From a virus, in the IMG/VR virus record IMGVR_UViG_3300021964_006504, positions 1 to 32,798 of that record: a stretch of 32,798 nt of DNA. One strand, given 5' to 3'. Position numbers and translations under genes: made by a program. Shown here one piece after another: positions 2,472 through 31,570 of the stretch (positions are counted from its first letter, which is position 1; each line of letters opens with the position of its first letter). Below the pieces are notes generated by a model that had not been told where the DNA came from, did no database searches, and worked only from the letters and a program-made list of their open reading frames with translations.

Positions 2472-4027
2472 TTTTTAGTGGTCAGTTGTATGAACATACT
2501 GGCTACACCCCCGAATCGATCCTAGCAGATCCAAAAAGATCTTATGGTGGACATAAGATCGCTACACATTTACGTGCTATTGGGTGGGACGTAGAGGTTA
2601 TAGACTTTGTCCCACACTTTACCGTTGAGGAATTAAAACTACTCTGGACGATGAGGTATAATAAGGGGACAAAATTTCTGGGTGTGAGTTCTTTGTTTCA
2701 AGCATTATGGGCACAACACATGAACCCATTTCTCGAGTGGGTCAAAGAAAAATACCCTGACATCACAATTATCGCAGGTGGTCCAATCGTAACAACTGTC
2801 GAAGAATTTAAGGCAGATTATTATATCCAAGGTTGGGGTGAGTATGCAATCGTTGAACTACTGAATTGGTTACATGGCTCTGGTAAGAAACCAATTATTA
2901 GTAAACATGTCAATTTACATGGTGAGGAATTAAAAGTCATCGATGCTCTTCACTTTTACAAGGCATATCCAAAAGAAGAATTACCTACAAGATATCAAGA
3001 GCGAGACTTCATACAACCTGATGAATTTTTGAATGCAGAATTTTCTAGGGGTTGTGTTTTTAAGTGTAAGTTTTGTGCTGCCCCTGCATTGGGTGTGACA
3101 AAAGATTATACTCGAACTGCTCAATGCTGGGAAGACGAGTTGAGATATAACTATGATAATTTCGGTGTCACCAATTACATATCTGGAGATGAGACTACAA
3201 ACGATTATACTGAGAAGTTGCGTAAGTATGCAGATGTAACTAAGAAGTTGCCATTCAAGCCATTCATAACAGGTTTCGCTCGCGGTGATATCGCTGTTGC
3301 TAAACCTGAACAGTGGGAACATATGATTGCCATGGGGTTTACATCTCACCATTACGGCATTGAATCCTTCAATGAAAAATCCGCTAAGTGGGTTCATAAA
3401 GGTATGGCTAAAAATAGACTACGCGAAGGTCTATTAGAGATGCGAGAATATTTCAACAAAAACGCACCTATATATAAGACAACGATGTCACTCATATCAG
3501 GGCTTCCTTACGACACATGGGAGTCTCTGATTGAGACTAAAGATTGGTTATTCAATCATTGGAGAGGGCAATCGGTTTATATTAATCCATTGCTAATTCA
3601 ACCAAAGGGACATACATCAGATAGCATGTCGAAATTACCGCCGCTATCTTACAATTATGAAGAACTTGGATATATAGAGTCTGACGTGTCGCTAGAAGAA
3701 TGGTTTCCTTCTCACTTACCGAGGACACCTGAAAACATCGAAGCTATTAATAGAATGAAAGATGTCAATTTTAGAGCCAGTCGCCCATTCTTTTGGAAAA
3801 ACGATAGGATCGGTATGAACTTCTTTGATCTATTAGAATGGTCTCAGAGGTTCAATAATGAATTCATACCACATCAGGGTGTATCGAATTGGTATATACC
3901 ATATTGGAAGACCTTTGCTAAAAAATCTTTTGGTGAGATATCTGATATAGTAGGGCAACCGTTACCAGAGTATGAACCAATTAAAGAATTTTTAGATAAT
4001 TATAAAGAGGCGAAGTTATCGCTATGA
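2456..4027 (+). CDS. B12-binding-type radical SAM protein, paralogue 2
   Basis: The 523-residue protein has the same layout as paralogue 1: an N-terminal Rossmann-like domain (HKIATHLRAIGWDVEVIDF, FLGVSSL, IIAGGP, GWGEYAI) without a visible DxHxxG, then the [4Fe-4S]/SAM motif C200, C204, C207 (SRGCVFKCKFC), a GDETTND motif and SGLPYDT. ATG 2456 is chosen because its MDHGMIFSG aligns with MHGILLGG of paralogue 1. ATG 2468, which forms a 4-base ATGA overlap with the upstream stop, is an equally reasonable start. Tandem paralogues suggest duplication or two steps on related substrates. The reaction is unknown. The gene ends in a 4-base overlap with the 2OG oxygenase gene. Confidence 0.8.
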   Translation: MDHGMIFSGQLYEHTGYTPESILADPKRSYGGHKIATHLRAIGWDVEVIDFVPHFTVEELKLLWTMRYNKGTKFLGVSSLFQALWAQHMNPFLEWVKEKYPDITIIAGGPIVTTVEEFKADYYIQGWGEYAIVELLNWLHGSGKKPIISKHVNLHGEELKVIDALHFYKAYPKEELPTRYQERDFIQPDEFLNAEFSRGCVFKCKFCAAPALGVTKDYTRTAQCWEDELRYNYDNFGVTNYISGDETTNDYTEKLRKYADVTKKLPFKPFITGFARGDIAVAKPEQWEHMIAMGFTSHHYGIESFNEKSAKWVHKGMAKNRLREGLLEMREYFNKNAPIYKTTMSLISGLPYDTWESLIETKDWLFNHWRGQSVYINPLLIQPKGHTSDSMSKLPPLSYNYEELGYIESDVSLEEWFPSHLPRTPENIEAINRMKDVNFRASRPFFWKNDRIGMNFFDLLEWSQRFNNEFIPHQGVSNWYIPYWKTFAKKSFGEISDIVGQPLPEYEPIKEFLDNYKEAKLSL

Positions 4028-4548
4028 GTTTTTTAAAAGTGTTAAGTGAATTAGATGTTGACATTGACCAAATGGTCGATGACTATCGAATATGTAAAGA
4101 ACTTTCGGGGTGGTCTCCGCAAGAGTCATACAAACAAATAGGTCTCAGACATCGCCATACTGTCACTGAAAATAAGTGGTGGGATTCAGAGGGTGGATTA
4201 ACTCATCGAGGTTTATTTGATACCGCATTCAATACTTGGAACGACCAAACACCAAGATATACGAAATTTGTGTGTGAAAGAATATGTGAATTGACAGGAT
4301 TTCCTCTTGGTCGAGTCAGATACATGACACAAGCAACTCAAACTGGGTTGAAAATGCATAGCGATGCTAATAAAAGATTACATTTTGTGATTCAAACTAA
4401 CCCCGATAGTTACATATTTCATAAAGAAGAGAAGCTAATACCTTATCATATGAAGGTGATGCCGCATTTTTATCTGGTAAACACCCAAGAACAACATTTT
4501 GTCTATAATGCAGGTGTTACAGATAGGGTTCATTTACTTATAAGTTGA
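4024..4548 (+). CDS. 2OG-Fe(II) oxygenase, aspartyl/asparaginyl beta-hydroxylase-like
   Basis: The 174-residue protein carries the pattern of the Asp/Asn beta-hydroxylase fold. The iron ligands would be H112 and D114 (KMHSDANKRLHFVI) and H158 (QHFVYNAG), and R168 (TDRVHLLIS) would bind 2-oxoglutarate. The R-x-H spacing after each ligand is characteristic of the family. These enzymes hydroxylate side chains or small molecules. In the phage the partner is unknown, but the gene is the last of a four-gene set with the sulfotransferase-like and two radical SAM genes (ATGA overlap with the previous stop). It ends just before a late promoter. It is one of four 2OG oxygenases in the window, each from a different subfamily or branch. 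Confidence 0.7.
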   Translation: MSFLKVLSELDVDIDQMVDDYRICKELSGWSPQESYKQIGLRHRHTVTENKWWDSEGGLTHRGLFDTAFNTWNDQTPRYTKFVCERICELTGFPLGRVRYMTQATQTGLKMHSDANKRLHFVIQTNPDSYIFHKEEKLIPYHMKVMPHFYLVNTQEQHFVYNAGVTDRVHLLIS

Positions 4549-9097: not shown

Positions 9098-9126
9098 TTG
9101 ACATTTTACAACTTATGGGGCATACT
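9098..9126 (+). promoter_or_regulatory. Sigma70-type early promoter
   Basis: TTGACA (9098-9103), a 17-base spacer and CATACT (9121-9126; 4 of 6 to TATAAT). It opens the oxygenase-primase-thyX-nrd block. Transcription would start near 9133, which is exactly the second in-frame ATG of the oxygenase gene. Confidence 0.65.
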
Positions 9127-9132
9127 GGGCAT

Positions 9133-9654
9133 ATGTATATCGCTCAATACCCCAATGTTATCCCTTCAGAATACTGTAAACATTTAATCGATAAGTTCGA
9201 AGCGGAACAACTCAAAGATATCCGTAAGAACGAGATTATGGACTTCACCGAAGTCAATCTGAATGATGCTGGGTGGGACGAGGAGATTCAAACTCTCGGT
9301 TCAGTGTTCACTCAAGCTATTGATGCTTATCGAAAGCATTACGACATCAAAATATTCCCTGAAAATTATGCTTGGGAACAGTTTCGTATGAAAAAATACG
9401 AAGCTGATCAGGGTGAGTTTCGTGAGCATATCGATGCTACCAATCTAGAGTCATCAAAAAGATTCCTCGTTTTCTTCACATACTTAAACGATGGCGAGGG
9501 TGGAGGAACAACTTTTACAAAAAATAACTTGACTGTTGAGAGAGAAACAGGTAAGATGTTAATGTTTCCGCCACTATGGACTCACCCACATAAAGGGGAT
9601 AAGCCCATCGGAAATCCAAAATATATTATTGGGAGTTATCTACATTTCTTATGA
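9133..9654 (+). CDS. 2OG-Fe(II) oxygenase, prolyl-4-hydroxylase-like
   Basis: The 173-residue protein matches the P4H-type 2OG oxygenase core. The iron ligands would be H99 and D101 (FREHIDATN) and H153 (THPHKG; H151 is the alternative). K163 (NPKYIIGSYLHF) stands where 2-oxoglutarate is bound. FFTYLNDGEGGGTTFTKNNL is the usual strand-turn between the ligands. The substrate is unknown. An ATG at 9115 lies between the -35 and -10 of the promoter at 9098, so it could not be on that mRNA. ATG 9133 coincides with the expected start of transcription, which would make the message leaderless. The stop overlaps the primase ATG by 4 bases. Confidence 0.7.
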   Translation: MYIAQYPNVIPSEYCKHLIDKFEAEQLKDIRKNEIMDFTEVNLNDAGWDEEIQTLGSVFTQAIDAYRKHYDIKIFPENYAWEQFRMKKYEADQGEFREHIDATNLESSKRFLVFFTYLNDGEGGGTTFTKNNLTVERETGKMLMFPPLWTHPHKGDKPIGNPKYIIGSYLHFL

Positions 9655-10667
9655 GCCTTTATGTTGATGTAAAATATTTGAATATGGCTTCTCATCGCTT
9701 TGAGTTATTCAAGCGGAAAAGCGATTATTTGTTCAATGTCCGCTGCCCTATCTGTGGTGACTCCCAGAAAAACAAGCGCAAGATGCGTGGGTATCTGTTC
9801 AAGAAGAACAACGATCTAATCTACAAGTGTCATAACTGTCAGTGGTCTGGCTCATTCGGTAAACTACTAAAAGAGATTGACTCTATTCTATATAAGCAGT
9901 ATGTTCTTGAGAGATTTGCAGATGGTGAGACAGGTCGAGGTAAAGGTCATTCTAAGCCTGAAGCTGTTATAGACTTCAAACCGAAGTTTCCTGAGAAATC
10001 TATCATTGATCAGTTGATGGATCGGTTGTCAACTCTCCCATATGACCATGAAGCTGTCGAATATGCTCTTGGTCGTGGACTCCCCAAGTCCTCGCTTAAT
10101 AGACTTTATTATGTAGATAATATCCAGAATATCACAACTCTCAATGACAAATATAAAGAGAGTATCAAAACAGAAGAACCTCGTCTCGCAATACCATTTA
10201 TTGACGGCAATGGTAAGCTAACAGCTGTGTCCCTTCGAGGGATGCGCGGAGAGGCTCTTCGCTATATCCTCGTCAAGGTTGACGAAGATGCTCCTACTGT
10301 CTTCGGTATGGATACAGTCGATAAGAACATGCCAGTTATCGTTGTTGAAGCACCACTTGACAGTCTCTTCATCCCCAACTCTATCGCTTGTGCTGGCACT
10401 TCTTTCAACAAGATTGATGAGTTGGGGTTGAACAAGGAAACTACCACTATCGTTTTTGATAATCAGCCTCGTAATAAAGAGGTTTGTCAATTGGTTGACA
10501 AATATATTAATCTAGATTATAATGTTGTCATCTGGCCAAATAATGTCACAGGTAAAGATATCAACGACATGCAAAATGATGGGATTGATGCGTATAAATT
10601 AATAAGAGATAACACCTATCGCGGTCTTTCCGCGAAAGCAAAATATTCATTATGGAGAAAAATATGA
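9651..10667 (+). CDS. DNA primase, T4 gp61 type
   Basis: This 338-residue protein is about the length of T4 gp61. An N-terminal zinc finger is formed by C32, C35 (RCPICGDSQ) and C60, C63 (YKCHNCQWSG). A TOPRIM core follows: E233 in IVVEAPLDSL, D270 in TTIVFDNQPRN, and GKDINDM (302-306) for metal binding. Such primases make short RNA primers for lagging-strand synthesis with the phage DnaB-type helicase (gp41 in T4), which is not in this window. The ATGA overlap with the preceding oxygenase places it in the early block. A perfect sigma70 promoter lies in its last third and probably serves the genes downstream. Confidence 0.85.
   Translation: MSLYVDVKYLNMASHRFELFKRKSDYLFNVRCPICGDSQKNKRKMRGYLFKKNNDLIYKCHNCQWSGSFGKLLKEIDSILYKQYVLERFADGETGRGKGHSKPEAVIDFKPKFPEKSIIDQLMDRLSTLPYDHEAVEYALGRGLPKSSLNRLYYVDNIQNITTLNDKYKESIKTEEPRLAIPFIDGNGKLTAVSLRGMRGEALRYILVKVDEDAPTVFGMDTVDKNMPVIVVEAPLDSLFIPNSIACAGTSFNKIDELGLNKETTTIVFDNQPRNKEVCQLVDKYINLDYNVVIWPNNVTGKDINDMQNDGIDAYKLIRDNTYRGLSAKAKYSLWRKI
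10495..10523 (+). promoter_or_regulatory. Perfect-consensus sigma70 promoter inside the primase gene
   Basis: TTGACA (10495-10500), 17 bases, TATAAT (10518-10523): both hexamers match the consensus exactly. It lies about 140 bases before the thyX start and would give thyX and the ribonucleotide reductase genes their own strong early transcript. Confidence 0.7.
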
Positions 10668-11317
10668 GCGAAGTAAACCTTATTGCCCTCAGTAAGCCAT
10701 CAGCAATTACAGATTGTGACACAGCTGCAGACTTGATTGCCTATACCGCACGTGTAAGTAATCCTGCCAATCAAAGTAATCTTGAGACTGCTCCACGTTT
10801 ATTGCGTTATCTAATCAAAGAAAATCATTGGTCTCCATTTGAGATGGTGCATATGACACTTGAAATCAAAACAACTCGTGACATTGCTCGTCAGATTTTA
10901 CGACATCGCTCGTTCTCGTTCCAGGAATTTAGTCAGCGTTATGCTGTGGCTCCAGGATTTGAAGGTCGTGAGGCTCGCCTGCAAGATACGAAGAACCGTC
11001 AGAACTCTGTGGAAACTGATGACCGTGACTTGAATGAGTGGTGGTCGATGCAACAAAAGCATGTGCAAAATACTGCTGAACTAGCTTACACTGAGGCACT
11101 TGAAAAGGGTATTGCGAAAGAGCAAGCAAGAGCATTACTTCCTGAAGGTCTGACTCAATCAACTTTATATATGGCTGGTTCTTTGCGTAGTTGGATTCAC
11201 TATTGCGATCTTCGTCGTGGTAATGGCACACAGAAAGAGCATGCTTTGATTGCTGATAAGTGTTGGGAAATAATCGGCGTCCACTTCCCTGATATTGTAA
11301 AGGCATTAGAAGAATAA
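10664..11317 (+). CDS. thyX: Flavin-dependent thymidylate synthase ThyX
   Basis: The 217-residue enzyme makes dTMP from dUMP with methylenetetrahydrofolate and FADH2/NADPH. The ThyX signature RHRxxSxxxxSxR is complete at residues 80-92 (RHRSFSFQEFSQR). LLPEGLTQSTLYM and SWIHYCDLR match the later dUMP/FAD-binding blocks. ATG 10664 is chosen because GGAG lies 5 bases upstream (GGAGAAAAATATG) and forms an ATGA overlap with the primase stop; ATG 10652 lies ahead of that site. Together with the dCMP deaminase at 25926 and NrdAB it forms a route to dTTP. There is no thymidylate-synthase-like dUMP hydroxymethylase in the window, so thymine is presumably made as ordinary dTMP. Confidence 0.9.
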   Translation: MSEVNLIALSKPSAITDCDTAADLIAYTARVSNPANQSNLETAPRLLRYLIKENHWSPFEMVHMTLEIKTTRDIARQILRHRSFSFQEFSQRYAVAPGFEGREARLQDTKNRQNSVETDDRDLNEWWSMQQKHVQNTAELAYTEALEKGIAKEQARALLPEGLTQSTLYMAGSLRSWIHYCDLRRGNGTQKEHALIADKCWEIIGVHFPDIVKALEE

Positions 11318-11913
11318 TGGGTCTTGGTTGGAATGATGGATTTGCTCCTGCCCCATTGGAGCCATTGACTGATATAGATTCCGTATTCTGGGATTCAGAA
11401 GCACTCTTGAACGAGGCAGTTGAATTACAGGAGTATGCTGTCAGTCCGATATTTACGGTTCCTCATACGGGATATGAATATAAGGTTCCTGGATTGACGC
11501 TCACAATGTCACAATTGACACCTAAATTGCAAAGATTTGCTGATGATTTCAGACTCGAGTATGGCGACTTGGGAGAGGTTAAATTCTTATATCTCTACAT
11601 TAGAGCAGGTGAGGAATATCCTTGGCATGTTGATAACATCATCTCGCAAAGCACAGGGCAAACAACGAAAGAAACTAAATGTGCCTTCAATATTTTACTG
11701 AAGGGTGAAGAAAACGAAGTCGAGTTTGATGGGTGGGGTAGCTATAGTTACAAAGCCAGTATTTTTGATACTTCTACTCGACACCGCATCACACCAGCTA
11801 CAGACCGCATCATGTGTAAAGTCACATTCAAAGATTTAGAATACTCTGAGGTAGTTTCGAAAATCAGTGATTCACTAAATAGAAAACCTCCAGGAGAAAC
11901 AGATGACCGATGA
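11317..11913 (+). CDS. 2OG-Fe(II) oxygenase-like protein (third)
   Basis: The 198-residue protein shows a double-stranded-beta-helix oxygenase pattern: H104 and D106 (EYPWHVDNII), H156 (STRHRITP) and R164 (ATDRIMCKVTF), with FLYLYIRAGEE just before the first ligand. The arrangement is closest to Asp/Asn hydroxylase or small phage hydroxylases. The N-terminal 50 residues are Pro-rich (APAPLEPLTD) and not assigned. The substrate is unknown. It sits in the nucleotide block (TAATG overlap with thyX) and its end overlaps the 44-residue gene at 11903 by 11 bases. The overall similarity to the oxygenase at 4024 appears low, so a separate function is likely. Confidence 0.6.
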   Translation: MGLGWNDGFAPAPLEPLTDIDSVFWDSEALLNEAVELQEYAVSPIFTVPHTGYEYKVPGLTLTMSQLTPKLQRFADDFRLEYGDLGEVKFLYLYIRAGEEYPWHVDNIISQSTGQTTKETKCAFNILLKGEENEVEFDGWGSYSYKASIFDTSTRHRITPATDRIMCKVTFKDLEYSEVVSKISDSLNRKPPGETDDR

Positions 11914-12037: not shown

Positions 12038-13837
12038 ATGGCAAAAAGAGAACATATGGGGATTCAAATTGATGAATCTCGTGACGAACTATTTGATAAA
12101 CTTGGTATCCAGCGTCTGCAAGAAAGTTATATGCGCGAAGAAGAAACGACTCCACAAGAGCGTTTTGCTTATGTGAGCAGTTCGTTTGCATCTAATCCTG
12201 AACACGCTCAACGATTGTATGAATATTCGTCAAAGCATTGGCTCTCATATTCTACGCCGATTTTGTCATACGGTCGCTCAAAGCGTGGTATGCCTATCTC
12301 CTGTTTCCTGAATTATATTGAGGATACAGCTGAAGGTCTGGTTCAAAACTTCAGCGAGACAGCTTGGTTGTCTATGCTAGGCGGCGGTGTTGGTATCGGT
12401 TTCGGTATCCGTGCAGCTGACGATAAATCTACAGGTGTTATGCCTCACCTCAAAACGTATGATGCATCTTCCCTCGCTTATCGTCAAGGTAAAACACGCC
12501 GTGGTTCATATGCTGCATATCTTGATATCTCACACCCAGACATTATGATGTTCCTCGAGATGCGCAAGCCAACAGGCGACCAGAACATGCGCGCTCTGAA
12601 TTTGCATCATGGTATTAATATCAGCGATCGCTTTATGGAAATTATTGAGCGTTGTATGCAGGATCCAGATGCTGATGATGGTTGGAATCTAATTGAGCCT
12701 CATAGTGGCGCGATCCGTGAGACAGTATCAGCGAAGGCACTATGGCAGAAAATCCTAGAACTACGAATGGAAACTGGTGAGCCATACATCCATTATATTG
12801 ACACCAGTAATCGCCTGATGCCAGAGTTTCAAAAAGAACTTGGTCTAAAAATTCACCAATCAAATCTCTGTTCTGAGATTATTCTACCTACAAACGAAGA
12901 ACGAACTGCAGTTTGCTGCCTGTCATCAGTGAACTTAGAACACTATGACGCTTGGTCAAAAGATCCGATGTTCTTGCAAGATATGGCAGAAATGCTGGAT
13001 AATGTTCTTCAATTCTTTATTGATAATGCACCAGACACAGTAAGTCGTGCTAAATACAGTGCGGCACGTGAAAGATCGATCGGCATTGGTGCATTAGGTT
13101 TCCACGCATACCTGCAGAAAAAGGGTATCGCTTGGGAAAGTGCTGTAGCCAAAGGTGCTAACATGCGTATGTTCCGATTGATCAGGAGTAAACTAGATGA
13201 AGCGAATATTCACCTCGGCAAAGAAAGAGGAGAAGCACCCGACGCTAAAGGAACAGGCAAGAGATTTAGTCATGTTATGGCTATCGCTCCTAATGCTTCC
13301 TCCTCTATTATTATGGGAAACACTTCTCCTTCTATTGAACCTTTTAGAGCGAATGCCTATCGACAGGACACTCTATCGGGAGCTTTTCTTAACAAGAACA
13401 AGTATCTTGATATCCTCATTAAAGGAAAATGTGAAGAAAATAAAAAGTTGGATTATGAAGAAATTTGGTCGTCAATCATAGCCAATGATGGGTCTGTCCA
13501 ACACCTAAATTTTCTTTCTGAAATTGAAAAAGGTATATATAAGACCTCAATGGAAATTGATCAGCGTTGGGTTATTGAACACGCAGCAGACAGACAAGCG
13601 TTTGTCGACCAAGCACAATCACTCAATCTGTTTTTCCGTCCAGATGTGAACATTAAATATCTCCATGCTATTCATTATCTTGCTTGGAAACAAGGACTGA
13701 AAACACTTTACTATTGCCGCTCTGAGAAGCTGGGTAAAGCTGATAAGGTGTCCAAACGTATTGAACGCCAAGTGATTAACGAAATTGATATGAGCGCATT
13801 AGTAAATGATGAAGAGTGTATCGCTTGTGAGGGCTAG
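12038..13837 (+). CDS. nrdA: Ribonucleotide reductase class I, large subunit
   Basis: The 599-residue catalytic subunit reduces ribonucleoside diphosphates. The active-site set is visible: C89 (MPISCF) and C293 (TAVCCLS) as the disulfide-forming pair, N276/C278/E280 (SNLCSEI) around the thiyl radical, and Y-Y in KTLYYCRS for radical transfer. The C-terminal shuttle pair is C594/C597 (ECIACEG). It is shorter than the roughly 760-residue cellular enzyme because there is no N-terminal ATP-cone; the sequence reaches catalytic blocks within 70 residues. I infer that it is not shut off by dATP, as suits a phage needing large dNTP pools. The start directly abuts the preceding stop. Confidence 0.9.
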   Translation: MAKREHMGIQIDESRDELFDKLGIQRLQESYMREEETTPQERFAYVSSSFASNPEHAQRLYEYSSKHWLSYSTPILSYGRSKRGMPISCFLNYIEDTAEGLVQNFSETAWLSMLGGGVGIGFGIRAADDKSTGVMPHLKTYDASSLAYRQGKTRRGSYAAYLDISHPDIMMFLEMRKPTGDQNMRALNLHHGINISDRFMEIIERCMQDPDADDGWNLIEPHSGAIRETVSAKALWQKILELRMETGEPYIHYIDTSNRLMPEFQKELGLKIHQSNLCSEIILPTNEERTAVCCLSSVNLEHYDAWSKDPMFLQDMAEMLDNVLQFFIDNAPDTVSRAKYSAARERSIGIGALGFHAYLQKKGIAWESAVAKGANMRMFRLIRSKLDEANIHLGKERGEAPDAKGTGKRFSHVMAIAPNASSSIIMGNTSPSIEPFRANAYRQDTLSGAFLNKNKYLDILIKGKCEENKKLDYEEIWSSIIANDGSVQHLNFLSEIEKGIYKTSMEIDQRWVIEHAADRQAFVDQAQSLNLFFRPDVNIKYLHAIHYLAWKQGLKTLYYCRSEKLGKADKVSKRIERQVINEIDMSALVNDEECIACEG

Positions 13838-14402
13838 TATTCCACACGATAAACGCATCGCTGTATGTGTATCGGGTGGTTGGGATAGTGCTGTTCTTTG
13901 GCATATAGTTTATAATGAGTGTAAGAAGAGAGGACAAAGTTGTCGCCCTTACACAGTCCCAAAAATCGACGGGGCAGTAAATTATGCTAATAAAGTATTG
14001 AAGTGGTCTGGTTACGACCAGAATACAAATGTTGTTGGGAGTATAGATGCTGAGAATCCATCCTCCTATGTAACGAGTGGTGTCGTTGAGATCCTGACTA
14101 AAGGATATGCCGACATCGTTTACGTTGCGGTGACGAAATATTATGATGGCATGGAAGCTGATCACGAAAGGCAGCATGCCAGTAAATATGGAGCAGAGGA
14201 TATTTGTCTTCAGCCTTTTCATAATTTAACGAAAGACCAAACGGTTCAATTGGCTTTCGACTTGGGTATCGCCGAAGATATTATGGACATAACACACAGT
14301 TGCACAGAGCTCGATGAGGGAAGGTGTGGCTATTGCCCTTGGTGTAAAGAACGCGATTGGGCTTTTAATAAAATAGGAAAACAAGACAAGGGGGCTAACT
14401 AA
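13806..14402 (+). CDS. QueC-like PP-loop ATPase
   Basis: The 198-residue protein has the PP-loop SGGWDS (residues 23-28) that binds ATP. At its C-terminus is a four-Cys zinc site, C166, C174, C177, C180 (HSCTELDEGRCGYCPWC), with the spacing of QueC. QueC turns 7-carboxy-7-deazaguanine into preQ0. It is slightly shorter than the usual 220-230 residues. No QueD, QueE, FolE or Dpd/Tgt-like gene is in the window. It overlaps the nrdA end by 32 bases (in-frame ATG at 13809 and GTG at 13827 are other possible starts) and its stop overlaps the glutaredoxin ATG. The substrate cannot be fixed from sequence; a role in deazaguanine supply or another ATP-dependent amidation or nitrile-forming step is possible. 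Confidence 0.6.
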   Translation: MMKSVSLVRASIPHDKRIAVCVSGGWDSAVLWHIVYNECKKRGQSCRPYTVPKIDGAVNYANKVLKWSGYDQNTNVVGSIDAENPSSYVTSGVVEILTKGYADIVYVAVTKYYDGMEADHERQHASKYGAEDICLQPFHNLTKDQTVQLAFDLGIAEDIMDITHSCTELDEGRCGYCPWCKERDWAFNKIGKQDKGAN

Positions 14403-23572: not shown

Positions 23573-24385
23573 ATGAATCCTAAGTGGTTATATATGGATG
23601 GAAAAGAACACACCAGCCGTATTGATAGATTTCATAACACAGATCGAGAAGATATTTTCCAGAAAAATCTGATCAATAATAGGGATTTGTTAGAGGAAAA
23701 TGGTTGGCTTCCGCTTCCCCCAGATGAGAGGTGTGTGGGTGACAGATTTCTCTATAATCCTGAAAATCCAGGATTGAATGATTGGATAGAATTGTCATAT
23801 CAGATAAACTCTCATGGGTTTCGTGGTATTGAGATGCCTACAGAAAAAAAACCTCGTAGTGTGATTGCGATTGGTTGTTCTACTACATTTGGCGTCGGTA
23901 TGCCAGTTGGTCAAATATGGCCAACACTCGTTGGTAATACATTAAGACAGAGATGTTATAATCTTGGTATCTGTGCAGGTTCTCATGACTCTGCCTTTCG
24001 TGTCTTGCTCTCATGGTTGCCAAAAATTAGACCTTCTCATGTATTTTTTTTAGAACCTCCAGGAGTTAGATATGAAACTCAAACTAACAGTATGGGATTT
24101 TGTTTGTCATCTATCCACGCTCCAAATCCAGTTGCTATGAGGTTTGAGACTGAAGGTGAATGGATAATATCGAGAGAAAAAACAATGCGAGCGATTAAGT
24201 CGCTTTGTGATCAGTTTGAAACTCCATTTTACCATACGCATCAAGACAATGATGATGAATTTTTTACAGTATTTGACAACCACGATCTTGCTAGGGATCT
24301 GATGCATGCTGGTCGAAAGCGTCATATTTTTTGGGCTATGAAATTCTTAAAAATGGCTGGGCATGAGTGGGAATTTAAAACTTGA
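23573..24385 (+). CDS. SGNH-like protein (second), GCS in place of GDS
   Basis: The 270-residue protein has the SGNH arrangement IAIGCSTTFGVGM with S103, NLGICAGSHDS (block II), EPPGVR (block III position) and D242-x-x-H245 (RDLMHAG). The usual Asp of GDS is C102, and the block III Asn is replaced by Pro-Pro, so the oxyanion hole is altered and activity is uncertain. It shares YQINSHGFRG with the first copy (NKQGFR). AGGAAATAGA precedes ATG. Its stop overlaps the TTG start of the third radical SAM gene, so an acyl hydrolase/transferase-like and a radical SAM protein are made together. Confidence 0.6.
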   Translation: MNPKWLYMDGKEHTSRIDRFHNTDREDIFQKNLINNRDLLEENGWLPLPPDERCVGDRFLYNPENPGLNDWIELSYQINSHGFRGIEMPTEKKPRSVIAIGCSTTFGVGMPVGQIWPTLVGNTLRQRCYNLGICAGSHDSAFRVLLSWLPKIRPSHVFFLEPPGVRYETQTNSMGFCLSSIHAPNPVAMRFETEGEWIISREKTMRAIKSLCDQFETPFYHTHQDNDDEFFTVFDNHDLARDLMHAGRKRHIFWAMKFLKMAGHEWEFKT

Positions 24386-25929
24386 GTGATGCGCTTTTAT
24401 TTGGCGGCACGTTTGAATTTAATACTGGTGTCCCATCTGTCCGTAGAAGTGCAGGGACACACCGCATTGCCACATTCATGAGAAAATATGGCTATGATGT
24501 AGAAGTCTTTGATTTCTTGATGTCATGGTCATTGGATGAATTGAAATCATTAGTTAAAAGTCGTGTGAACGACGATACCGAAGTGATAGGATTCGGCGGC
24601 ACATTCAATATCAACTTCCCCATAGTATGTGAGTTTGTAGATTGGATCAAAGAGAACTATCCTAATATCAAGACTGTGGCTGGCAGTCAATCATTCCAAA
24701 CAATACATCAATTGAATGTAGATTACCACGTTGTAGGGTTCGCTGAAAAAGCGATGATAGAGATATTACGGGGAAATGTTAAATATGTGGACAGACCGTG
24801 GAATGAAGAGGGTGATTATCGTCGTGTAATTGAAGCACTACATGAATATCCATCCTTTCCAATGGACGAACTTTCGATCGAATATGAGGACAGAGACTTC
24901 CTAGATCCTAATGAATCTCTGACGATGGAGTGTGCGAGGGGTTGCATCTTCAAATGTAAGTTCTGCACATTCCCAATCTTGGGTGTTCGAGACGACCACA
25001 CTAGGTCAGCTGTCGACTTCGAGAAAAACTTAAAAACTAATTTCGATCTCTGGGGAATTACAAAATACTCGATCGCTGATGAGACATTCAATGATTACAC
25101 TGAGAAGGTAATTAAGTATGCCGATGTGGTCGAGAAGTTAGACTTCGAACCGCATTTTCATGGCTATATCAGAGCAGACCTTCTCGCAGCGAGACCAGAC
25201 GACATTGAGCATTTAGCCCGTATGCGTTATAATGGTCACTTCTATGGAATTGAGTCTTTCAACCATGCATCAGCGAAGTCTATCGGTAAAGGAATGGATC
25301 CAGATAAGCTGAAAGAGACTATCCTGTATACAAAAGAGTATATGAAAAAGCATACGGGGTTTTATAAGGGTCTGATCAGTCTCATTATTGGGTTGCCGCA
25401 CGAAACTGAGGAGACGATAGACAGCACATGGGGATGGATTAAAAACAATTGGCAGGGAGAGTCGTTGACGATTAATCCACTGTTGATACCTCGAGAGGGA
25501 ACTACGATTAACACTTCAGTCTTCTCTCGCGACTATAAGAATTATGGATACACAGAAAATACATGGGATAATATCTACATTGATAAAGATGATAGGATTG
25601 AATCTCTGTATAAAGATGATAATATCTCGACGGAGATCAAGAATTATATTAGGATGTTATCAACAGGTGTCGCTAACGATTATTTCTCCATACCATGGGA
25701 GAATGATTCATACAATGCATGGGAGGCAATCGTTAAGGCTTCTCATATGTATGCTGACAATCACTGGCAGTTTGGTCCAAACCCCTATAAATTCTATGAG
25801 TGGTTCGTCGCTGGATATTCACTTAATGATATGATGCAGTCATTTAAAGAGATAGGTTCTTTCTCACCTTCCCTTGACATTTTGGAAAAATTCATATATG
25901 ATTATAAAATAAAGAAACTGGAGTTATGA
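24382..25929 (+). CDS. B12-binding-type radical SAM protein, paralogue 3
   Basis: The 515-residue protein follows paralogues 1 and 2 in order: a Rossmann-like N-terminal domain (THRIATFMRKYGYDVEVFDF, TVAGSQS) without DxHxxG, cluster motif C188, C192, C195 (ARGCIFKCKFC), IADETFND, GHFYGIESF and IGLPHETEET. It starts at TTG 24382, overlapping the SGNH-like stop (TTGA); no in-frame ATG lies close by, and MSDALLFGG aligns with MHGILLGG of paralogue 1. Unlike paralogues 1 and 2, its sampled rows are not AT-rich (about 45-52% G+C). The reaction is unknown. A promoter for the next operon lies in its last 20 codons. Confidence 0.75.
   Translation: MSDALLFGGTFEFNTGVPSVRRSAGTHRIATFMRKYGYDVEVFDFLMSWSLDELKSLVKSRVNDDTEVIGFGGTFNINFPIVCEFVDWIKENYPNIKTVAGSQSFQTIHQLNVDYHVVGFAEKAMIEILRGNVKYVDRPWNEEGDYRRVIEALHEYPSFPMDELSIEYEDRDFLDPNESLTMECARGCIFKCKFCTFPILGVRDDHTRSAVDFEKNLKTNFDLWGITKYSIADETFNDYTEKVIKYADVVEKLDFEPHFHGYIRADLLAARPDDIEHLARMRYNGHFYGIESFNHASAKSIGKGMDPDKLKETILYTKEYMKKHTGFYKGLISLIIGLPHETEETIDSTWGWIKNNWQGESLTINPLLIPREGTTINTSVFSRDYKNYGYTENTWDNIYIDKDDRIESLYKDDNISTEIKNYIRMLSTGVANDYFSIPWENDSYNAWEAIVKASHMYADNHWQFGPNPYKFYEWFVAGYSLNDMMQSFKEIGSFSPSLDILEKFIYDYKIKKLEL
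25874..25902 (+). promoter_or_regulatory. Sigma70-type early promoter for the deaminase/hypermodification block
   Basis: TTGACA (25874-25879), 17 bases beginning TTTTGG, TATGAT (25897-25902; 5 of 6). It is inside the end of the radical SAM gene, 24 bases before ATG 25926, and shares the first spacer bases with the promoter at 18294. It may drive all genes to about 31570. Confidence 0.7.
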
Positions 25930-26348
25930 TGAACAAGTGGGATAAAGCACATATGAAGGCAGCTGAAGTGTATGCTCAGCTATCGTCAGCGAAACGACTA
26001 CAGGTGGGGGCAGTTATTGTAAAAGATAACCGCATCATCTCTATCGGATATAATGGTATGCCATCTGGGTGGACGAATGATTGTGAAATTACAGACGAGT
26101 TTGGTAATATGCCTGTAACTAAACCAGAAGTGTTACATGCTGAAACAAATGCCATCGCAAAGGTGGCTCGGTCTGGTGAAAGTTGTGAAGGTGCTACTCT
26201 CTACACCACACACTCACCTTGCCTTGATTGCGCGAAACTAATCTATCAAGCTGGCATCACTCGCGTGGTTTGGAAAAACCAATATAAAACTGATGTAGGA
26301 AACGTGTTTCTTGTGACTGCTGGTGTTGATGTGGGACATATAGAATGA
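25926..26348 (+). CDS. dCMP deaminase
   Basis: The 140-residue zinc enzyme turns dCMP into dUMP, feeding ThyX. The Zn ligands are H71 (VLHAETNA, with E73 as proton shuttle), C99 and C102 (SPCLDC). RLQVGAVIVKDNRIISIGYN and GMPSGWTNDCE are typical for phage dCMP deaminases such as T4 Cd. GGAG sits next to two ATGs (25926 and 25929); the second has the better spacing. It heads the operon that carries the hypermodification genes, which fits a need for extra dTTP. It ends in a 4-base overlap with the dehydrogenase-like gene. Confidence 0.85.
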   Translation: MMNKWDKAHMKAAEVYAQLSSAKRLQVGAVIVKDNRIISIGYNGMPSGWTNDCEITDEFGNMPVTKPEVLHAETNAIAKVARSGESCEGATLYTTHSPCLDCAKLIYQAGITRVVWKNQYKTDVGNVFLVTAGVDVGHIE

Positions 26349-27085
26349 AGATTACAATATTTGGTTATGGCTTTGTCGGCAAGGCACATGAGATGATGCT
26401 GAAAGAAAAGCATGATGTCACTGTAGTAGATCCAGCATTCAACAATAACACTATCGGCAAACCTAAAGCCGTAATTGTCGCGGTTTCTACGCCACAATCT
26501 ATTGATGGCTCATGTAACATGAATAATGTATTCAGTGTGTTGCGAGAGTGTCCGAAAGATATCCCGATCCTGATCAAAAGCACGATCTCATTAGAGGGTT
26601 GGCGACAGATAAAGGAGAGATTCCCAAAACTTAATATTACATTCAGCCCTGAGTTTCTCCGAGAAGCAACTGCATTTGAGGATTTCGCCAACGCTGAAGC
26701 ATTCTATTTCGGTGGTGGCGATGATGTTTTCTGGGCTTCTATCTTCTGGCAAGAGGGTCGTAAGATGTATAGTCGAGATCCCGAAGAACTAATCACAATG
26801 AAATATGCTGTGAATAGTTTTCTAGCAACAAAAGTTATTTTCTTCAATCAATTGTTTGACTTTTGTGAAGCAACTGGTGTAGAATATAAAAATGTTAAGA
26901 AATTAGTGGCTAGAGATCCACGCATTGGTGACAGCCATATGGTCGTTACAGATGAGCGTGGGTTCGGTGGTCACTGCTTCCCGAAAGATACATCAGCCTT
27001 GCTTGAAACATCTAAAAGATATAATTGTAATTTATCTCTCCTCCAAGAGGCAGTAAACTATAATAAGGTGATTCGTGATGATTGA
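26345..27085 (+). CDS. Shortened UDP-glucose/GDP-mannose dehydrogenase-like protein
   Basis: The 246-residue protein has the NAD-binding GYGFVGKA (residues 7-14), VSTPQS, KSTI, SPEFLREATAFEDF (101-114), central-domain K153 and N157 (TMKYAVNSFLATK) and the thiohemiacetal Cys211 in GFGGHCFPKD. These are the catalytic residues of nucleotide-sugar 6-dehydrogenases. The family is usually 390-450 residues; the C-terminal UDP-binding domain is absent with no sign of frameshift, so the short form seems natural. It may use an atypical substrate or work with a partner. A role in making a sugar acid for phage DNA or host-surface change is only a guess. Confidence 0.75.
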   Translation: MKITIFGYGFVGKAHEMMLKEKHDVTVVDPAFNNNTIGKPKAVIVAVSTPQSIDGSCNMNNVFSVLRECPKDIPILIKSTISLEGWRQIKERFPKLNITFSPEFLREATAFEDFANAEAFYFGGGDDVFWASIFWQEGRKMYSRDPEELITMKYAVNSFLATKVIFFNQLFDFCEATGVEYKNVKKLVARDPRIGDSHMVVTDERGFGGHCFPKDTSALLETSKRYNCNLSLLQEAVNYNKVIRDD

Positions 27086-27293: not shown

Positions 27294-28598
27294 ATGGTAA
27301 AAGAACTAACTATTGAAAAGCATGATTGTGAGAAACTCTTGGGGCAGTGGCTTGATGATTCCACTTATGACCAAGTAATCACATCAGACACAGACCTGTA
27401 TGCTCGGCGACTAATTGGTGAGAACAGTGAACATAATGTAATCTTCAAGTTTCGTAAGGGAGTTTTCTCCAAAGAGGAACAAGAGGGTGCATTCGAAGGT
27501 CTGGCTCCAGCTGCTATTGAGACACAAAATCGTGGTCTCGCTGCTGGTCCACGACAGGGTCAGAATGGTAAACGCGACTGGGTTACTCCTTTACAGGAGG
27601 ATATTCTGGACGCTATCTTTACTGCTCCTGACTCGACTCTTGATGAAAATTTCGATGCTATTGAGAACGCCATCGCTCGCCACAAGCCTGATGACGCTGG
27701 GCGTGGTCGTGTCTGGCTTCGAGATCGAATCAAGAAAACTGGTGTAGAATATTCTAAGTTCTTTGACCATTGGTTAGATACTGTGCGTCCGATGTCTGCT
27801 GTCGAGCGTAAAGCTGAAGCCAAAGAAATGGTTAAGACATATATCTCTGACACCTCATATGCAAACACAGTGAACTCTGGTATCGCTGGCTGGTTCGATC
27901 GTTATCCTCGCATCCCATACGGTCGTGCGACAGCTTATACCGAGAAGAATCCTGAATTGTTTGCTAAATCGTATCCGTATCTGCAGACACTGGCTCGTAA
28001 GTTCGAGGAATTGCTCCCTGAACGCTATGCCAAACAGAAAGCATTTACTGATGCGATTGATCCGAAGTATGTTGTTCCTGGAACACCATACACCACACTG
28101 ACTGTCAACCGAACATTCCGCACAGCTGCACATAGAGACGCTGGTGATTACACTGAAGGTTTCTCTAATATCAGCTGCATCTCTCCAGATGGCAAAAAGG
28201 GTTGGGATGGTTGTCTGTTTGTGTTACCTGAGTTCCGTATTGCTGTTGAGTTGCATCCTGGAGATTTGCTCCTCGTGAATAACCATGAAGGCATCCATGG
28301 CAATACGGAAATCATTGGTGACGATCCTATTCGTATTTCGATCGTTGCCTATGCTCGTGAGAAAATGGCTCTGCTTGGGTCATATGATTATGAGTCACAT
28401 CGTAAAGGGTTTGTCGATCATCGGCGACTCAACGAAGAACATCCCGAGTGGCGTCCTCTCTGGAATGGTGTATCACCAAATATGTGGGACACCACAGAAT
28501 GGTATGATTACCTGAGAGAACACGGTGGACAGGAAATGCTTGATACTTATCATCCCAAAGCATCAGCAGGTGTCGCCTCACTCGAGGATCTGTTCTAA
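27294..28598 (+). CDS. TET/JBP-family 2OG-Fe(II) dioxygenase (DNA base oxidation)
   Basis: The 434-residue protein has its catalytic core at residues about 260-360. It opens with TVNRTFRTAAHRDAGDYTEG, giving iron ligands H280 and D282; GGYL-like DGCLFVLPEFRIAVELHPGD follows, then H335 (NHEGIHGNT) and R347 (IRISIVAYARE) for 2-oxoglutarate. The TVNRxxRTAxHxDxGD...HGNT pattern is that of phage TET/JBP proteins, which hydroxylate 5-methylcytosine (TET) or thymine (JBP) in DNA. Residues 1-250 are an uncharacterised N-terminal region. No DNA methyltransferase is in the window, and dCMP deaminase plus ThyX are present, so thymine is my preferred substrate. It heads a string of modification genes with overlapping stops. 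Confidence 0.75.
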   Translation: MVKELTIEKHDCEKLLGQWLDDSTYDQVITSDTDLYARRLIGENSEHNVIFKFRKGVFSKEEQEGAFEGLAPAAIETQNRGLAAGPRQGQNGKRDWVTPLQEDILDAIFTAPDSTLDENFDAIENAIARHKPDDAGRGRVWLRDRIKKTGVEYSKFFDHWLDTVRPMSAVERKAEAKEMVKTYISDTSYANTVNSGIAGWFDRYPRIPYGRATAYTEKNPELFAKSYPYLQTLARKFEELLPERYAKQKAFTDAIDPKYVVPGTPYTTLTVNRTFRTAAHRDAGDYTEGFSNISCISPDGKKGWDGCLFVLPEFRIAVELHPGDLLLVNNHEGIHGNTEIIGDDPIRISIVAYAREKMALLGSYDYESHRKGFVDHRRLNEEHPEWRPLWNGVSPNMWDTTEWYDYLREHGGQEMLDTYHPKASAGVASLEDLF

Positions 28599-29236
28599 TG
28601 TGCGCAGTAATTGGTGCACTACTAAAATCTCCTACATCTGAACAACTCGATTTAGTGAGAAATGTCTTCCTTGAATCTCGTATTCGAGGTATGCATGCGA
28701 CTGGTTTATCGTATGCCAAAAATGGTAAGGTTGTCACTCTCAAAGAACCTGTTCCTGCTCCTGATTTCTCTCCTCTCTCAAATTTGGAGCAGATGGTGAA
28801 TGAGGATGGCAACCTTTACCTAATTGGACACTGTCGTTATTCGACCAGTGACCTGAGATACAATCAACCAATTCAAATAAACGATAAAGTCTCTGTCGTC
28901 CACAATGGTGTTATCTCACAGGAACTTCCCGAAAATTGGGAAAAGCTGTATGGTTATACGACCGAGACACATAATGATACTGAACTGATCAACCACACTC
29001 TTGATGCTGGTCTGAATCCTCTCAATGAATGGACAGACTCCTCAATGGCTGTCATCGAGTTACACTCTGACGGTTTCATGACTTGGTATCGAAATGGCAA
29101 GCGACCTTTATATAAGACAACGCTTGAAAATGGTTATATTATTACATCAACAAAGGACATTGCAAAACGTGCTGGAATCACTACTGAATCTGAGCGAGTC
29201 GAATGTGCAGGACGGGATCTCCAACCTGTCATTTGA
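28598..29236 (+). CDS. Stand-alone class II glutamine amidotransferase
   Basis: The 212-residue Ntn-hydrolase domain has catalytic Cys2 exposed after Met removal (MCAVIGALL), R80 (GHCRYST), N103-G104 (VVHNGVIS) and D127 (HNDTEL). These residues release ammonia from glutamine. In cells the domain is normally fused to a synthase (GlmS, PurF, AsnB); here no synthase follows, so ammonia would be passed to a separate protein of the same operon. This fits an amine-installing step on a DNA base, or the protein could be a glutamine-cleaving partner of the aGPT-Pplase-like protein. The ATG overlaps the dioxygenase stop by one base. Confidence 0.8.
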   Translation: MCAVIGALLKSPTSEQLDLVRNVFLESRIRGMHATGLSYAKNGKVVTLKEPVPAPDFSPLSNLEQMVNEDGNLYLIGHCRYSTSDLRYNQPIQINDKVSVVHNGVISQELPENWEKLYGYTTETHNDTELINHTLDAGLNPLNEWTDSSMAVIELHSDGFMTWYRNGKRPLYKTTLENGYIITSTKDIAKRAGITTESERVECAGRDLQPVI

Positions 29237-29729
29237 CGAATGGTCTGTGTTTTGTGAAGAACATAAAGCCACAGACAAATTCTTCTCTAAAATGAAGCGT
29301 GGAATCATTGACGACAAATGTCATGACTGTATCCGCGCATTTTACGAGGATGGTAAGATCTTGGGTGTTATTGCTACCAAGATGATGAAGAACTATGCTA
29401 ATCTGAAGTGGATCGTCACTATCCCAGACGCGAGGGGCAAAGGTGTGTTTCGCGCTCTGTGTGAGGACGCTGTTCATCGTGCGTATATGGCGAATCTAAA
29501 ACACTTCCGAGTATCAATCAATGCTCCTGCTCTGACTGCTTACCAGAAGGTGGGTTTTAAGACTTGGGGCATTCAAGCATCCGACACCTATCTGTCTATT
29601 GGACGCCTCGCTGGACCAAGTGTAAACGATCTCATCTGGGAATGGGATGATTATACAGAGAAAGAAGTCACTAAGAAAGGTATGGGTGGTTGCGTGAAAG
29701 ACTATTGGAAAGAGCCACGTGGATTATAG
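29205..29729 (+). CDS. GNAT-family acyltransferase
   Basis: The 174-residue protein has the acyl-CoA-binding motif IPDARGKGVFRALCEDAVHR (residues 73-92) and the end of the GNAT fold, N106...AYQKVGFKTWG. GNAT enzymes acylate amines. GTG 29205 is used because the GNAT domain is complete from there and the overlap with the amidotransferase is then 32 bases; an ATG at 29094 would add 37 residues wholly inside that gene. Placed after an amidotransferase and before an amine-transferase-like protein, it could acetylate an amine on the modified base. Its stop overlaps the GTG start of the next gene. Confidence 0.7.
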   Translation: MQDGISNLSFDEWSVFCEEHKATDKFFSKMKRGIIDDKCHDCIRAFYEDGKILGVIATKMMKNYANLKWIVTIPDARGKGVFRALCEDAVHRAYMANLKHFRVSINAPALTAYQKVGFKTWGIQASDTYLSIGRLAGPSVNDLIWEWDDYTEKEVTKKGMGGCVKDYWKEPRGL

Positions 29730-30732
29730 AGAACGCCAGAATCGTCGTGAAGCATTCAAGCGGTGGTATGCATGGTCGCTGAACTACGGTGACTGTGACC
29801 CTGCCATCTGGATGGCTAATTACATCAACGAACGCTATGAGCATAATGATGAGCAACGCCTCTGGTTCTCGTGGCTGTATGGCAATACATACTATCTCCC
29901 GACTTCGTGGGTGCTGATGAATGAGTTTCCTGATTTCGAGTTGGCTACATTCGATCGCATGGATGCTTGGAACACGGAGAACTATAAACGCCTTCGCTAT
30001 CAGACTGACACCAAGTGGAGCAAGGGACATCTGGCAGACATGTATGCCTCGTATGAGAAGTTCGTGGGCAAGGGAACGCAGCGTGAGAAGCTGGAGTCGT
30101 ATTTCGGAGACAACGAGGAACAGAACTTCGATAATCTCTGGGTGGCTCTGAAGGATGGTCTGTATAAGTTTGGTCGCTACTCGACTTGGTTTTATATGCA
30201 ACAGCTGAAGCATACAGCAGATATCCCCATGGAGTCAACCAGTCTGATGCTGAATGATTATTCTGGCTCACGCTCTCATCGCAATGGCTGGCTCTATGCT
30301 CTCGGCGAAGAGGATAAAGTGAATACAAGGCTGACTGCAGACGAGTATCAGAGACTGGAGGACAACGCTCGGTATCTGTTACAAGAGATGCGTATCGAAT
30401 ATCCACACCTCGCTGATCAGTTGGACTATTTCTCTATGGAGACGTGTCTCTGCTCCTTCAAGAAGCTGTTTCGAACGCATCATGGTCGATATCTGGGTTA
30501 CTATCTAGATCGCCAAGCTGAAGAGATTATGAAAGTCGAGCAGGATGGGTGGTCTGGTATCGAATGGGAAGTGTTATGGCAAGCCAGAGCAGAAACTTTA
30601 GACTTGACATTAGCGACAAAAACAGGTATAAACAAGAGTAAGTTTGATTCATTTCTAAAGACGGGACAGTTGGATCGTCTGGAGATGATGTATAGTGATG
30701 AACAAAATGTAGAGGGAGTTTTACCGCTATGA
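29719..30732 (+). CDS. aGPT-Pplase / amino acid:DNA transferase-like protein
   Basis: The 337-residue all-alpha protein matches my memory of the alpha-glutamyl/putrescinyl-thymine pyrophosphorylase superfamily. Its blocks are GNTYYLPTSWVLMNEFPDF (residues 55-73), RLRYQTDTKWSKG (91-103), FGRYSTWFYMQQL (151-163), LMLNDYSGSRSHRNGW (176-191) and ETCLCSFKKLF (241-251) with YLGYYLDRQAEE. The SGSRSHRNG block is the most telling. The family replaces the activated phosphate of a 5-phosphomethyl pyrimidine in DNA by an amino acid or polyamine. The start is GTG 29719, overlapping the GNAT stop. The neighbouring P-loop kinase would supply the activated base. The bound amine cannot be told from sequence. 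Confidence 0.65.
   Translation: MDYRERQNRREAFKRWYAWSLNYGDCDPAIWMANYINERYEHNDEQRLWFSWLYGNTYYLPTSWVLMNEFPDFELATFDRMDAWNTENYKRLRYQTDTKWSKGHLADMYASYEKFVGKGTQREKLESYFGDNEEQNFDNLWVALKDGLYKFGRYSTWFYMQQLKHTADIPMESTSLMLNDYSGSRSHRNGWLYALGEEDKVNTRLTADEYQRLEDNARYLLQEMRIEYPHLADQLDYFSMETCLCSFKKLFRTHHGRYLGYYLDRQAEEIMKVEQDGWSGIEWEVLWQARAETLDLTLATKTGINKSKFDSFLKTGQLDRLEMMYSDEQNVEGVLPL
30604..30632 (+). promoter_or_regulatory. Sigma70-type promoter inside the aGPT-Pplase-like gene
   Basis: TTGACA (30604-30609), 17 bases, TATAAA (30627-30632; 5 of 6). It lies about 100 bases before ATG 30729 and would serve the hypothetical and kinase genes. It overlaps coding sequence and may be chance, but the exact 17-base spacing matches the other promoters. 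Confidence 0.45.
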
Positions 30733-31022
30733 GTAGTAATATGGTTAAATTAATTTTTGGTGAGAAACACTATTGGTGTCGAGTGTGGAAAGATTTTTTA
30801 CCCGAAAACCAGTTCTATACGGAAAGAGGTTGGGCTAATAGCCCAGATTCCCCAAAGAGAAATGTCTGTATTAAGGCTTATAACACCCCAGTCTGGTGTG
30901 AGGAACAAGGCAAGATGATCACAGCATGTGGTGTAGAAAAATTTGATGACCAAGTTCGTCTTCATCATGGGTTGATTACAGAAATGCCTAAAAAACCATC
31001 ATTGGTCGGATTGTTTAAATGA
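30729..31022 (+). CDS. Unrecognised protein inside the hypermodification operon
   Basis: This 97-residue protein is soluble and basic with three Cys and several Trp: YWCRVWKDFLPENQFYTERG and VCIKAYNTPVWCEEQGK. It is joined to both neighbours by 4-base ATGA overlaps, so it is clearly part of the operon between the aGPT-Pplase-like gene and the kinase. I see no known domain; it could be a substrate-binding or accessory subunit of either enzyme. It is not a fragment of a neighbouring reading frame. Confidence 0.55.
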   Translation: MSSNMVKLIFGEKHYWCRVWKDFLPENQFYTERGWANSPDSPKRNVCIKAYNTPVWCEEQGKMITACGVEKFDDQVRLHHGLITEMPKKPSLVGLFK

Positions 31023-31570
31023 GCACAGTGATTGCGATCGTCGGTGTTCCTGGAACTGGGAAGTCGACATTAATGAAACAGTTTCTTGAAAACTGGATGT
31101 GGGAAGAACACAAGCCAGTTGACCTGCTGGATGGGTATCTGGCTCGAGACGAGGGTATTTTTGTCATGGGTAAGTATGAGGAGGGTGAGGTGTTCTCTGG
31201 AACCGATCGCCTCTCGATGGCTGTCCAACCGAAGGCAATCGAGTATCTCGAGGGAGATCCTGCTGACACGGTGGTATTCGAGGGCGATCGCCTGACCACA
31301 GTCTCATTCTTCCAAGCAGTGAAAGCAGCTGGTCATAAGCTGGTGATTGTCGAGTTGACTGTCCCAGACGACCTTCGAGAGCAGCGGTATGTCGATCGTG
31401 GCTCTGATCAGTCTGAACAATTCATCCAGTCTCGCTTTACGAAGCTGAAGAACATTAAGAATGAGTTTGGACCAAATCTGTTTGATGATGGAGAGATTAC
31501 GACATTCGAACATAAAAATGCAGAAGATACAAAAAAGGTGTTGACATTTATCTCCAATGTGCTAGAATAA
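31019..31570 (+). CDS. P-loop kinase, 5-hydroxymethyl-dU DNA kinase-like
   Basis: The 183-residue kinase has Walker A GVPGTGKST (residues 9-17), an acidic site VFSGTDRLSMAVQP (58-71) and VVFEGDRLT (85-93), then the Arg-rich lid-like stretch LREQRYVDRGSDQS. The nucleoside-kinase-like fold with GTDxLS and EGDRL resembles phage kinases that phosphorylate 5-hydroxymethyl pyrimidines in DNA. That reaction activates the base for amine replacement by aGPT-Pplase-type enzymes, and the gene for such a protein is just upstream. A general nucleotide kinase is the alternative. It has an ATGA overlap with the preceding gene, and the next gene has its own promoter. Confidence 0.65.
   Translation: MSTVIAIVGVPGTGKSTLMKQFLENWMWEEHKPVDLLDGYLARDEGIFVMGKYEEGEVFSGTDRLSMAVQPKAIEYLEGDPADTVVFEGDRLTTVSFFQAVKAAGHKLVIVELTVPDDLREQRYVDRGSDQSEQFIQSRFTKLKNIKNEFGPNLFDDGEITTFEHKNAEDTKKVLTFISNVLE
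31541..31568 (+). promoter_or_regulatory. Sigma70-type promoter
   Basis: TTGACA (31541-31546), 16 bases, TAGAAT (31563-31568; 5 of 6). It lies in the last codons of the kinase and would start transcription near 31575, giving ATG 31596 a short leader. Confidence 0.55.

Follow-up and report, generated by a model that had tools for sequence, protein, structure and literature searches.

Characterised thymine hypermodifications start from 5-hydroxymethyl-deoxyuridine (5-hmdU) that is incorporated as a nucleotide: in the phages ViI, M6 and PaMx11, the hydroxymethyl group is made on deoxyuridine monophosphate (dUMP), which is then polymerised. Systems starting from hydroxymethylpyrimidines made by TET/JBP dioxygenases were reportedly predicted by Iyer et al. 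in 2013. 5-hmdU is a common intermediate, with a kinase and alkylamine transferases acting downstream (PMC6449724), and the 5-hmdU kinase acts on SP8 DNA (PMC7653180). A set composed of a TET, an ADDT (aGPT-PPlase2-type transferase) and a kinase has been annotated as a thymidine hypermodification system in Rhodococcus phage Tonitrus (PMC11955845), and this combination is thus not a new idea. Here we analyzed a gene string on the + strand, positions 27294 to 31570, of the virus record IMGVR_UViG_3300021964_006504, whose 32.8-kb sequence is called the window and seems to be part of the genome of a T4-like phage of aquatic type. It shares with ViI, M6 and PaMx11 the chemistry of a 5-hmdU kinase and an amino acid:DNA transferase, but has a TET instead of the hydroxymethylase, and it adds to the Tonitrus set a stand-alone class II glutamine amidotransferase (GAT) and a GNAT acyltransferase. 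The novelty lies in the GAT tied to the TET-ADDT-kinase core. With a probability of about 0.6, we propose that the cassette encodes a post-replicative thymine hypermodification pathway in which the GAT would supply ammonia and the GNAT would acylate the product.

The Tonitrus cluster comprises ParB, TET/JBP, aGPT-PPlase2 and a 5-hydroxymethyluracil kinase. Tonitrus and the mycobacteriophages VioletZ and LilMcDreamy share with the window a TET, an ADDT and a P-loop kinase and the absence of PF00303, and in the window, as in the Tonitrus type, the three genes lie in one operon. However, the Tonitrus-type TET is short (about 300 amino acids) and belongs to another subfamily, the ADDT is divergent (20 to 28% identity to that of the window), and no GAT is annotated nearby. 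No ParB-like protein was found among the cluster ORFs scanned in the window fragment, its remaining ORFs being only partly scanned. The cultured Caulobacter phage Cr30, whose genome is complete, encodes a TET, an ADDT and a kinase that are 42%, 25% and 34% identical to those of the window, but it has no GAT match beside the cassette, and a gene annotated as inositol-1-phosphate synthase lies close to its ADDT. Phages such as S-CBWM1 have a TET of the same family followed by a TET-associated glycosyltransferase (TAGT) rather than by GAT, ADDT and kinase; in one related contig (L007; TET 74% identical), the TAGT replaces the whole cassette. Class II amidotransferases also occur in the GAT-amidoligase pairs of phages tf and LUZ24 and in the Gat-QueC protein of phage 9g, where they serve a DNA base (PMC6884629), but these systems concern another base or target, and no TET, ADDT or kinase partner is annotated there. 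A literature search, with most subscription papers outside its reach, found no description of a GAT with TET and ADDT. We know of no characterised thymine-modification pathway that uses a glutamine-splitting enzyme.

The string consists of six ORFs whose ends overlap start-to-end, forming a single operon-like unit. Five of them had been placed in one overlapping string and assigned to enzyme families by a first-pass annotation made from the sequence alone, and all five assignments scored above curated Pfam cut-offs: the 434-amino-acid TET/JBP 2-oxoglutarate (2OG)-Fe(II) dioxygenase (27294..28598; Tet_JBP, 69.3 bits, cut-off 34.9), the 212-amino-acid GAT with its N-terminal Cys2 (28598..29236; GATase_6, 37 bits, cut-off 27), the GNAT (29169..29729; Acetyltransf_1, 33.1 bits, cut-off 20.7), the 337-amino-acid ADDT with a GTG start (29719..30732; PF18724, 62.7 bits, cut-off 26.2), and the 183-amino-acid P-loop kinase of the 5-hmdU DNA kinase type (31019..31570; Ploopntkinase3, 56.1 bits, cut-off 27). 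The annotation had allowed that the kinase and the protein starting at 29719 might fall into unrelated families; the profile searches returned Ploopntkinase3 and ADDT. Its GNAT start at 29094, where the frame opens, did not hold, as homologues (e.g., L003) begin at the codon equivalent to GTG 29169 or later. The cassette genes were 69 to 89% identical to those of IMG/VR relatives, with ratios of nonsynonymous to synonymous substitution of 0.06 to 0.25 where computable (0.07 for the GNAT), two kinase or ADDT pairs being saturated at synonymous sites. The five genes are under purifying selection.

The TET carries the HxD...H iron triad and the 2OG-binding arginine (H280, D282, H335 and R347). 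These catalytic residues, picked out in the first-pass annotation, were invariant in 18 diverse TETs and in 135/135 homologues of a wider set. Its AlphaFold2 model (predicted local distance difference test score, pLDDT, 82.7) had CcTet, TET2, NgTet1 and CMD1 as best Foldseek matches, with E values of 2e-9 to 1e-7 for the top three. We propose that it would act as a thymine 5-methyl hydroxylase in DNA. The residue three positions after D282 was considered as an indicator of base specificity; it is an aspartate (D285) in the window and in 131/135 homologues and an asparagine in actinophage TETs, and would need a T-specific reference to be decisive. Public annotations are misleading in KU682439, KF301602, MG450654 and NC_011044, where a TET may be called 'queuine tRNA-ribosyltransferase' or 'SNF2 DNA repair protein', and where 'terminase small subunit' is the name given to the kinase.

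The ADDT profile found the solved glycinyltransferase 8z2m (E value, 5e-7) and the AADT 25qc (2e-6). With the ADDT model (pLDDT 92.8), the best Foldseek match was the 5-phosphomethyl-deoxyuridine (5-PmdU) glycinyltransferase of phage PaMx11 (PUGT, gp46; PDB 8z2m/8z2n), at a probability of 1.00 and an E value of only 0.009. The VIA comparison with 8z2m gave a Z score of 16.8 and a root mean square deviation of 3.8 over 260 residues, the runner-up matches being DNA glycosylases with Z near 9. The window ADDT thus shares the PUGT fold at about 10% identity, and its nucleophile may differ. Sequence and model together lead us to propose that it would transfer an amine onto 5-PmdU. A single-sequence search of the PDB found no match to the ADDT; with the kinase it gave nothing above noise, and the kinase profile found only generic P-loops there. 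The kinase shares its Walker A, GTD and EGxR motifs with other phage kinases; T62, D63, E88, G89 and R91 were present in 77/77 homologues and the Walker lysine in 76/77. The PHROG label 'terminase small subunit' (phrog_800) was rejected for it, since in actinophages this family goes by either name, adenylate kinase or terminase small subunit, and has kinase motifs in common with the window.

The GAT residues C2, R80, N103 and D127, named by the earlier reading, and also G104, were invariant in 100/100 homologues. To describe the surroundings of GAT and TET, we kept the best 80 of 368 GAT relatives and the best 80 of at least 565 confirmed TET relatives, ranked by similarity to the window; the contigs of both sets are related rather than independent, and the counts are inflated by shared ancestry. 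Among the GAT contigs long enough to tell, 76/78 had a TET, 69/69 an ADDT and 56/56 a kinase. Over the unique contigs of both scans, the gene following TET in the module was GAT in 92, TAGT in 21, ADDT in 6 and the kinase in 3, and 499/499 module genes lay on one strand. The remaining neighbours were less regular: among 85 resolvable GAT contigs, a second GNAT type (GNAT2) occurred in 44 and an Amidoligase_2-like gene in 36, of which 24 also had a GNAT; the other 5, which make up the clade of the window, had only the GNAT. Thus TET, GAT, ADDT and kinase form a constant core, whereas acetyltransferases, amidoligase and glycosyltransferases vary.

A tree of the ADDTs placed those of GAT loci on one side of a branch (support 78/94, bootstrap 78%), and those of Cr30, L081 and L096 in a separate group (support 100/99); several branches are long and deep placements unsure. 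GAT presence required a single change on this tree, compared with a mean of 9.2 after shuffling, and 0/500 shuffles were as low. A Fisher test that compared ADDT classes for the presence of GAT (25/0 and 0/7, p 3e-7) takes related contigs to be independent, and the tree test is the better of the two. GAT is thus a constant partner of one ADDT lineage; we think that this is the new part of the system, and the first-pass annotation missed it. In L011 (14269-15450), L081 (4958-6085) and L096 (7892-9031), an inositol-1-phosphate synthase gene lies close to an ADDT that belongs to a group apart, with no GAT, and perhaps serves as another nucleophile supply.

We infer the reactions, together with the modified base, its product and its role, as follows; the steps rest on characterised relatives (the 5-hmdU kinase acting on SP8 DNA, the common 5-hmdU intermediate and the 8z2m transferase). 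Certain thymines of the phage DNA would be hydroxylated by TET at their 5-methyl group, giving 5-hmdU, and the P-loop kinase would phosphorylate the resulting hydroxyl in DNA. ADDT would then swap the phosphate for a nitrogen nucleophile. We have high confidence in these three steps on thymine. In the GAT lineage, glutamine would be split by GAT and ammonia passed to ADDT, in a division of labour like that of PurF, where ammonia displaces pyrophosphate; the product would be 5-aminomethyl-deoxyuridine (5-aminomethyl-dU) rather than the glycinyl-dU of the solved relative. The amine may finally be acylated by the GNAT, and in relatives decorated by amidoligase, the other GNAT or a glycosyltransferase; acetyltransferases are reportedly known as tailoring enzymes from the work of Lee et al. 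in 2021/22. Oxidation, phosphorylation, amine replacement and acylation had been proposed in this order before; the order fits the chemistry of the relatives and the ADDT-PUGT fold, and the activities, base and product stay putative. The modification would most likely shield the DNA from bacterial defences, with protection against host nucleases as its likely role.

Ammonia is proposed as the nucleophile because, of the constant partners of GAT, only ADDT could use it, the other neighbours (44 GNAT2, 36 amidoligase and 5 GNAT loci) being variable, and because the best solved relatives of GAT in profile searches were PurF enzymes, followed by GlmS. We rate ammonia, as opposed to an amino acid, at somewhat less than even odds. 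More tentative still is the joint reading in which GAT and ADDT would form a two-component, glutamine-dependent DNA amidotransferase installing a 5-aminomethyl-dU handle in hundreds of aquatic phages, and in which interchangeable acyltransferases and amidoligases would elaborate that handle.

On the same TET-kinase-ADDT route, ADDT might instead add a free amino acid, as in PaMx11 and ViI, with GAT supplying ammonia for a later carboxylate amidation, by the amidoligase where present and by another ligase in the window's clade, or trimming a gamma-glutamyl group. The solved ADDT relative is indeed a glycinyltransferase, phage tf carries a GAT and amidoligase pair, and the Amidoligase_2-like gene adjoins GAT in its 36 loci and never occurred without GAT in the set. 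This gene forms two subgroups, one (L046) matching PF12224 at 33.2 bits (cut-off 22) and the other (L041) at a sub-threshold 16.4 bits, which align to each other at 99.9% probability. However, the window has no amidoligase, nor have the 44 GNAT2-type and 5 window-type GAT loci, and amidation is therefore not the general purpose of GAT unless another ligase serves; moreover, GAT tracks the ADDT lineage. We regard the amino acid alternative as unlikely, if the most serious one.

Which base is modified depends on what TET oxidises. The comparison covered eight cultured ADDT phages whose genomes are complete or nearly so (Montesquieu identified by BLAST, the others by profile). A TET without a divergent hydroxymethylase is encoded by Cr30, VioletZ, Tonitrus and LilMcDreamy. 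The reverse, a divergent PF00303 protein without a TET, holds for SFP10, 1.255.O, phiMAM1 and Montesquieu, and none of the eight combines the two. In SFP10, 1.255.O and Montesquieu, the hydroxymethylase-like proteins have CN in place of the PCH catalytic motif. PF00303 was not found in the window, which is a fragment, and neither the thymidylate synthase family PF00303 nor the C5-methyltransferase family PF00145 was found in 48 related contigs, which are partly fragments; six of them are large (166.8, 166.5, 138.7, 116, 105.7 and 99 kb). The window also encodes a flavin-dependent thymidylate synthase, ThyX (10652..11317, +; TIGR02170, 150.8 bits, cut-off 87.9), and a dCMP deaminase for dUMP supply (25926..26348, +; dCMP_cyt_deam_1, 91 bits), the latter also found upstream of TET in L002 and L004-L008, and because of these two enzymes it should make ordinary thymidylate. 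Together, the complementary distribution, the absences and the two nucleotide enzymes give comparative support to thymine, oxidised in DNA, as the probable starting base, and the distribution and the absences do so for the view that TET stands in for the hydroxymethylase. The first-pass annotation had stated that no such synthase is present, which a 32.8-kb fragment cannot tell and with which the 48 relatives, in part fragments themselves, agree; its suggestion that the dioxygenase makes the hydroxymethyl group directly in DNA agrees with the same data, with activity and base remaining predictions.

A TET acting on 5-methylcytosine, the modified base then being cytosine, would match the solved TET relatives, which are 5-methylcytosine oxidases, and phage TETs are reportedly active on this base according to Burke et al. 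in 2021. However, none of the 14 records in an initial set, among them the window and the complete Cr30, DLP6, C48C1 and S-CBWM1, has PF00145, nor has any of the 48 related contigs, and the characterised relatives of the kinase and ADDT act on 5-hmdU or 5-PmdU, which makes this explanation improbable. The text of the DLP6 paper holds no usable restriction digestion result. Synthesis of the hydroxymethyl group at the nucleotide level by a gene elsewhere in the genome, with TET performing a different, later oxidation, would be compatible with the fragmentary window and with the PF00303 gene of Cr30, but that protein is a canonical thymidylate synthase, which passes two NCBIfam equivalog cut-offs and keeps the PCH motif, no relative among the 48 has PF00303, and the window has ThyX, so that we consider it very improbable. 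Finally, GAT might act with a QueC-like protein of the window in 7-deazaguanine (archaeosine) modification unrelated to TET, given that phage 9g produces dG+ by means of a Gat-QueC fusion (PMC6884629), but we give this hardly any credence, as the window GAT is not fused to QueC and adjoins TET and ADDT, QueC belongs to the window's own lineage, including L007 with TET then TAGT and no GAT in the locus, and the GAT contigs of 166.8, 166.5 and 99 kb have no QueC.

Several points weigh against the proposed thymine pathway with GAT as ammonia donor. We are aware of no measurement of a modified nucleoside in any member of the family. The nucleophile of ADDT cannot be read from sequence, and GAT could serve a tailoring step, because 36/85 GAT loci carry an amidoligase and the tf and LUZ24 types pair the two without TET. 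The census covers the best 80 of 368 GATs by similarity to the window, and distant ones may differ; its counts carry the shared ancestry mentioned above. The absences of PF00303 and PF00145 are provisional, since most relatives, like the window itself, are fragmentary.

If TET starts the route, ordinary thymine would be altered after replication, much as JBP does in making base J in trypanosomes, but here for amine chemistry. Glutamine-dependent amination of a DNA base would, if true, be a possible new enzyme activity. A conserved core with swappable tailoring enzymes suggests that modified DNA bases form a large pool, most of it uncultured, although the TET part is open to study in cultured relatives, Cr30 being one.

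The sixth ORF of the string (30729..31022, +; 97 amino acids) matched no family in profile searches and is variable among relatives, with a weak match in L002 (30%) and none in L003-L005. Among the variable genes of GAT loci, one sub-type has a low-molecular-weight phosphatase-like gene that separates the amidoligase from the ADDT (L046:5987-6409), with phosphatase-like genes by sequence resemblance in L123 (2732-3169) and L180 (6985-7404). ORFs of 430 to 490 amino acids with no clear family lie between GNAT and ADDT in L041 (13483-14784), L075 (9154-10635) and L104 (13449-14771), and by eye are possibly ParB/GIY-YIG- or HNH-like mobile genes. The QueC-like PP-loop protein of the window (13806-14402; PF06508, 39.4 bits), with no other deazaguanine genes noted, is a lineage marker shared with L007. 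Elsewhere, a QueC link is possible for SFP10 and SP-15, which are hypermodified-thymine phages. Both have a singleton QueC (PMC6884629). Other oxygenase-like ORFs accompany TET in the window: one matches 2OG-FeII_Oxy_3 (9115-9654), one weakly Asp_Arg_Hydrox (4024-4548), and one without a family match shows a resemblance judged by eye (11317-11913). A shortened UDP-glucose dehydrogenase-like ORF of 246 amino acids (26345-27085) lies upstream of TET here and in several relatives. A CxxxCxxC motif is shared by three large ORFs that resemble one another (852-2471, 2456-4027 and 24382-25929), the last of which was confirmed as a B12-binding/radical SAM protein.

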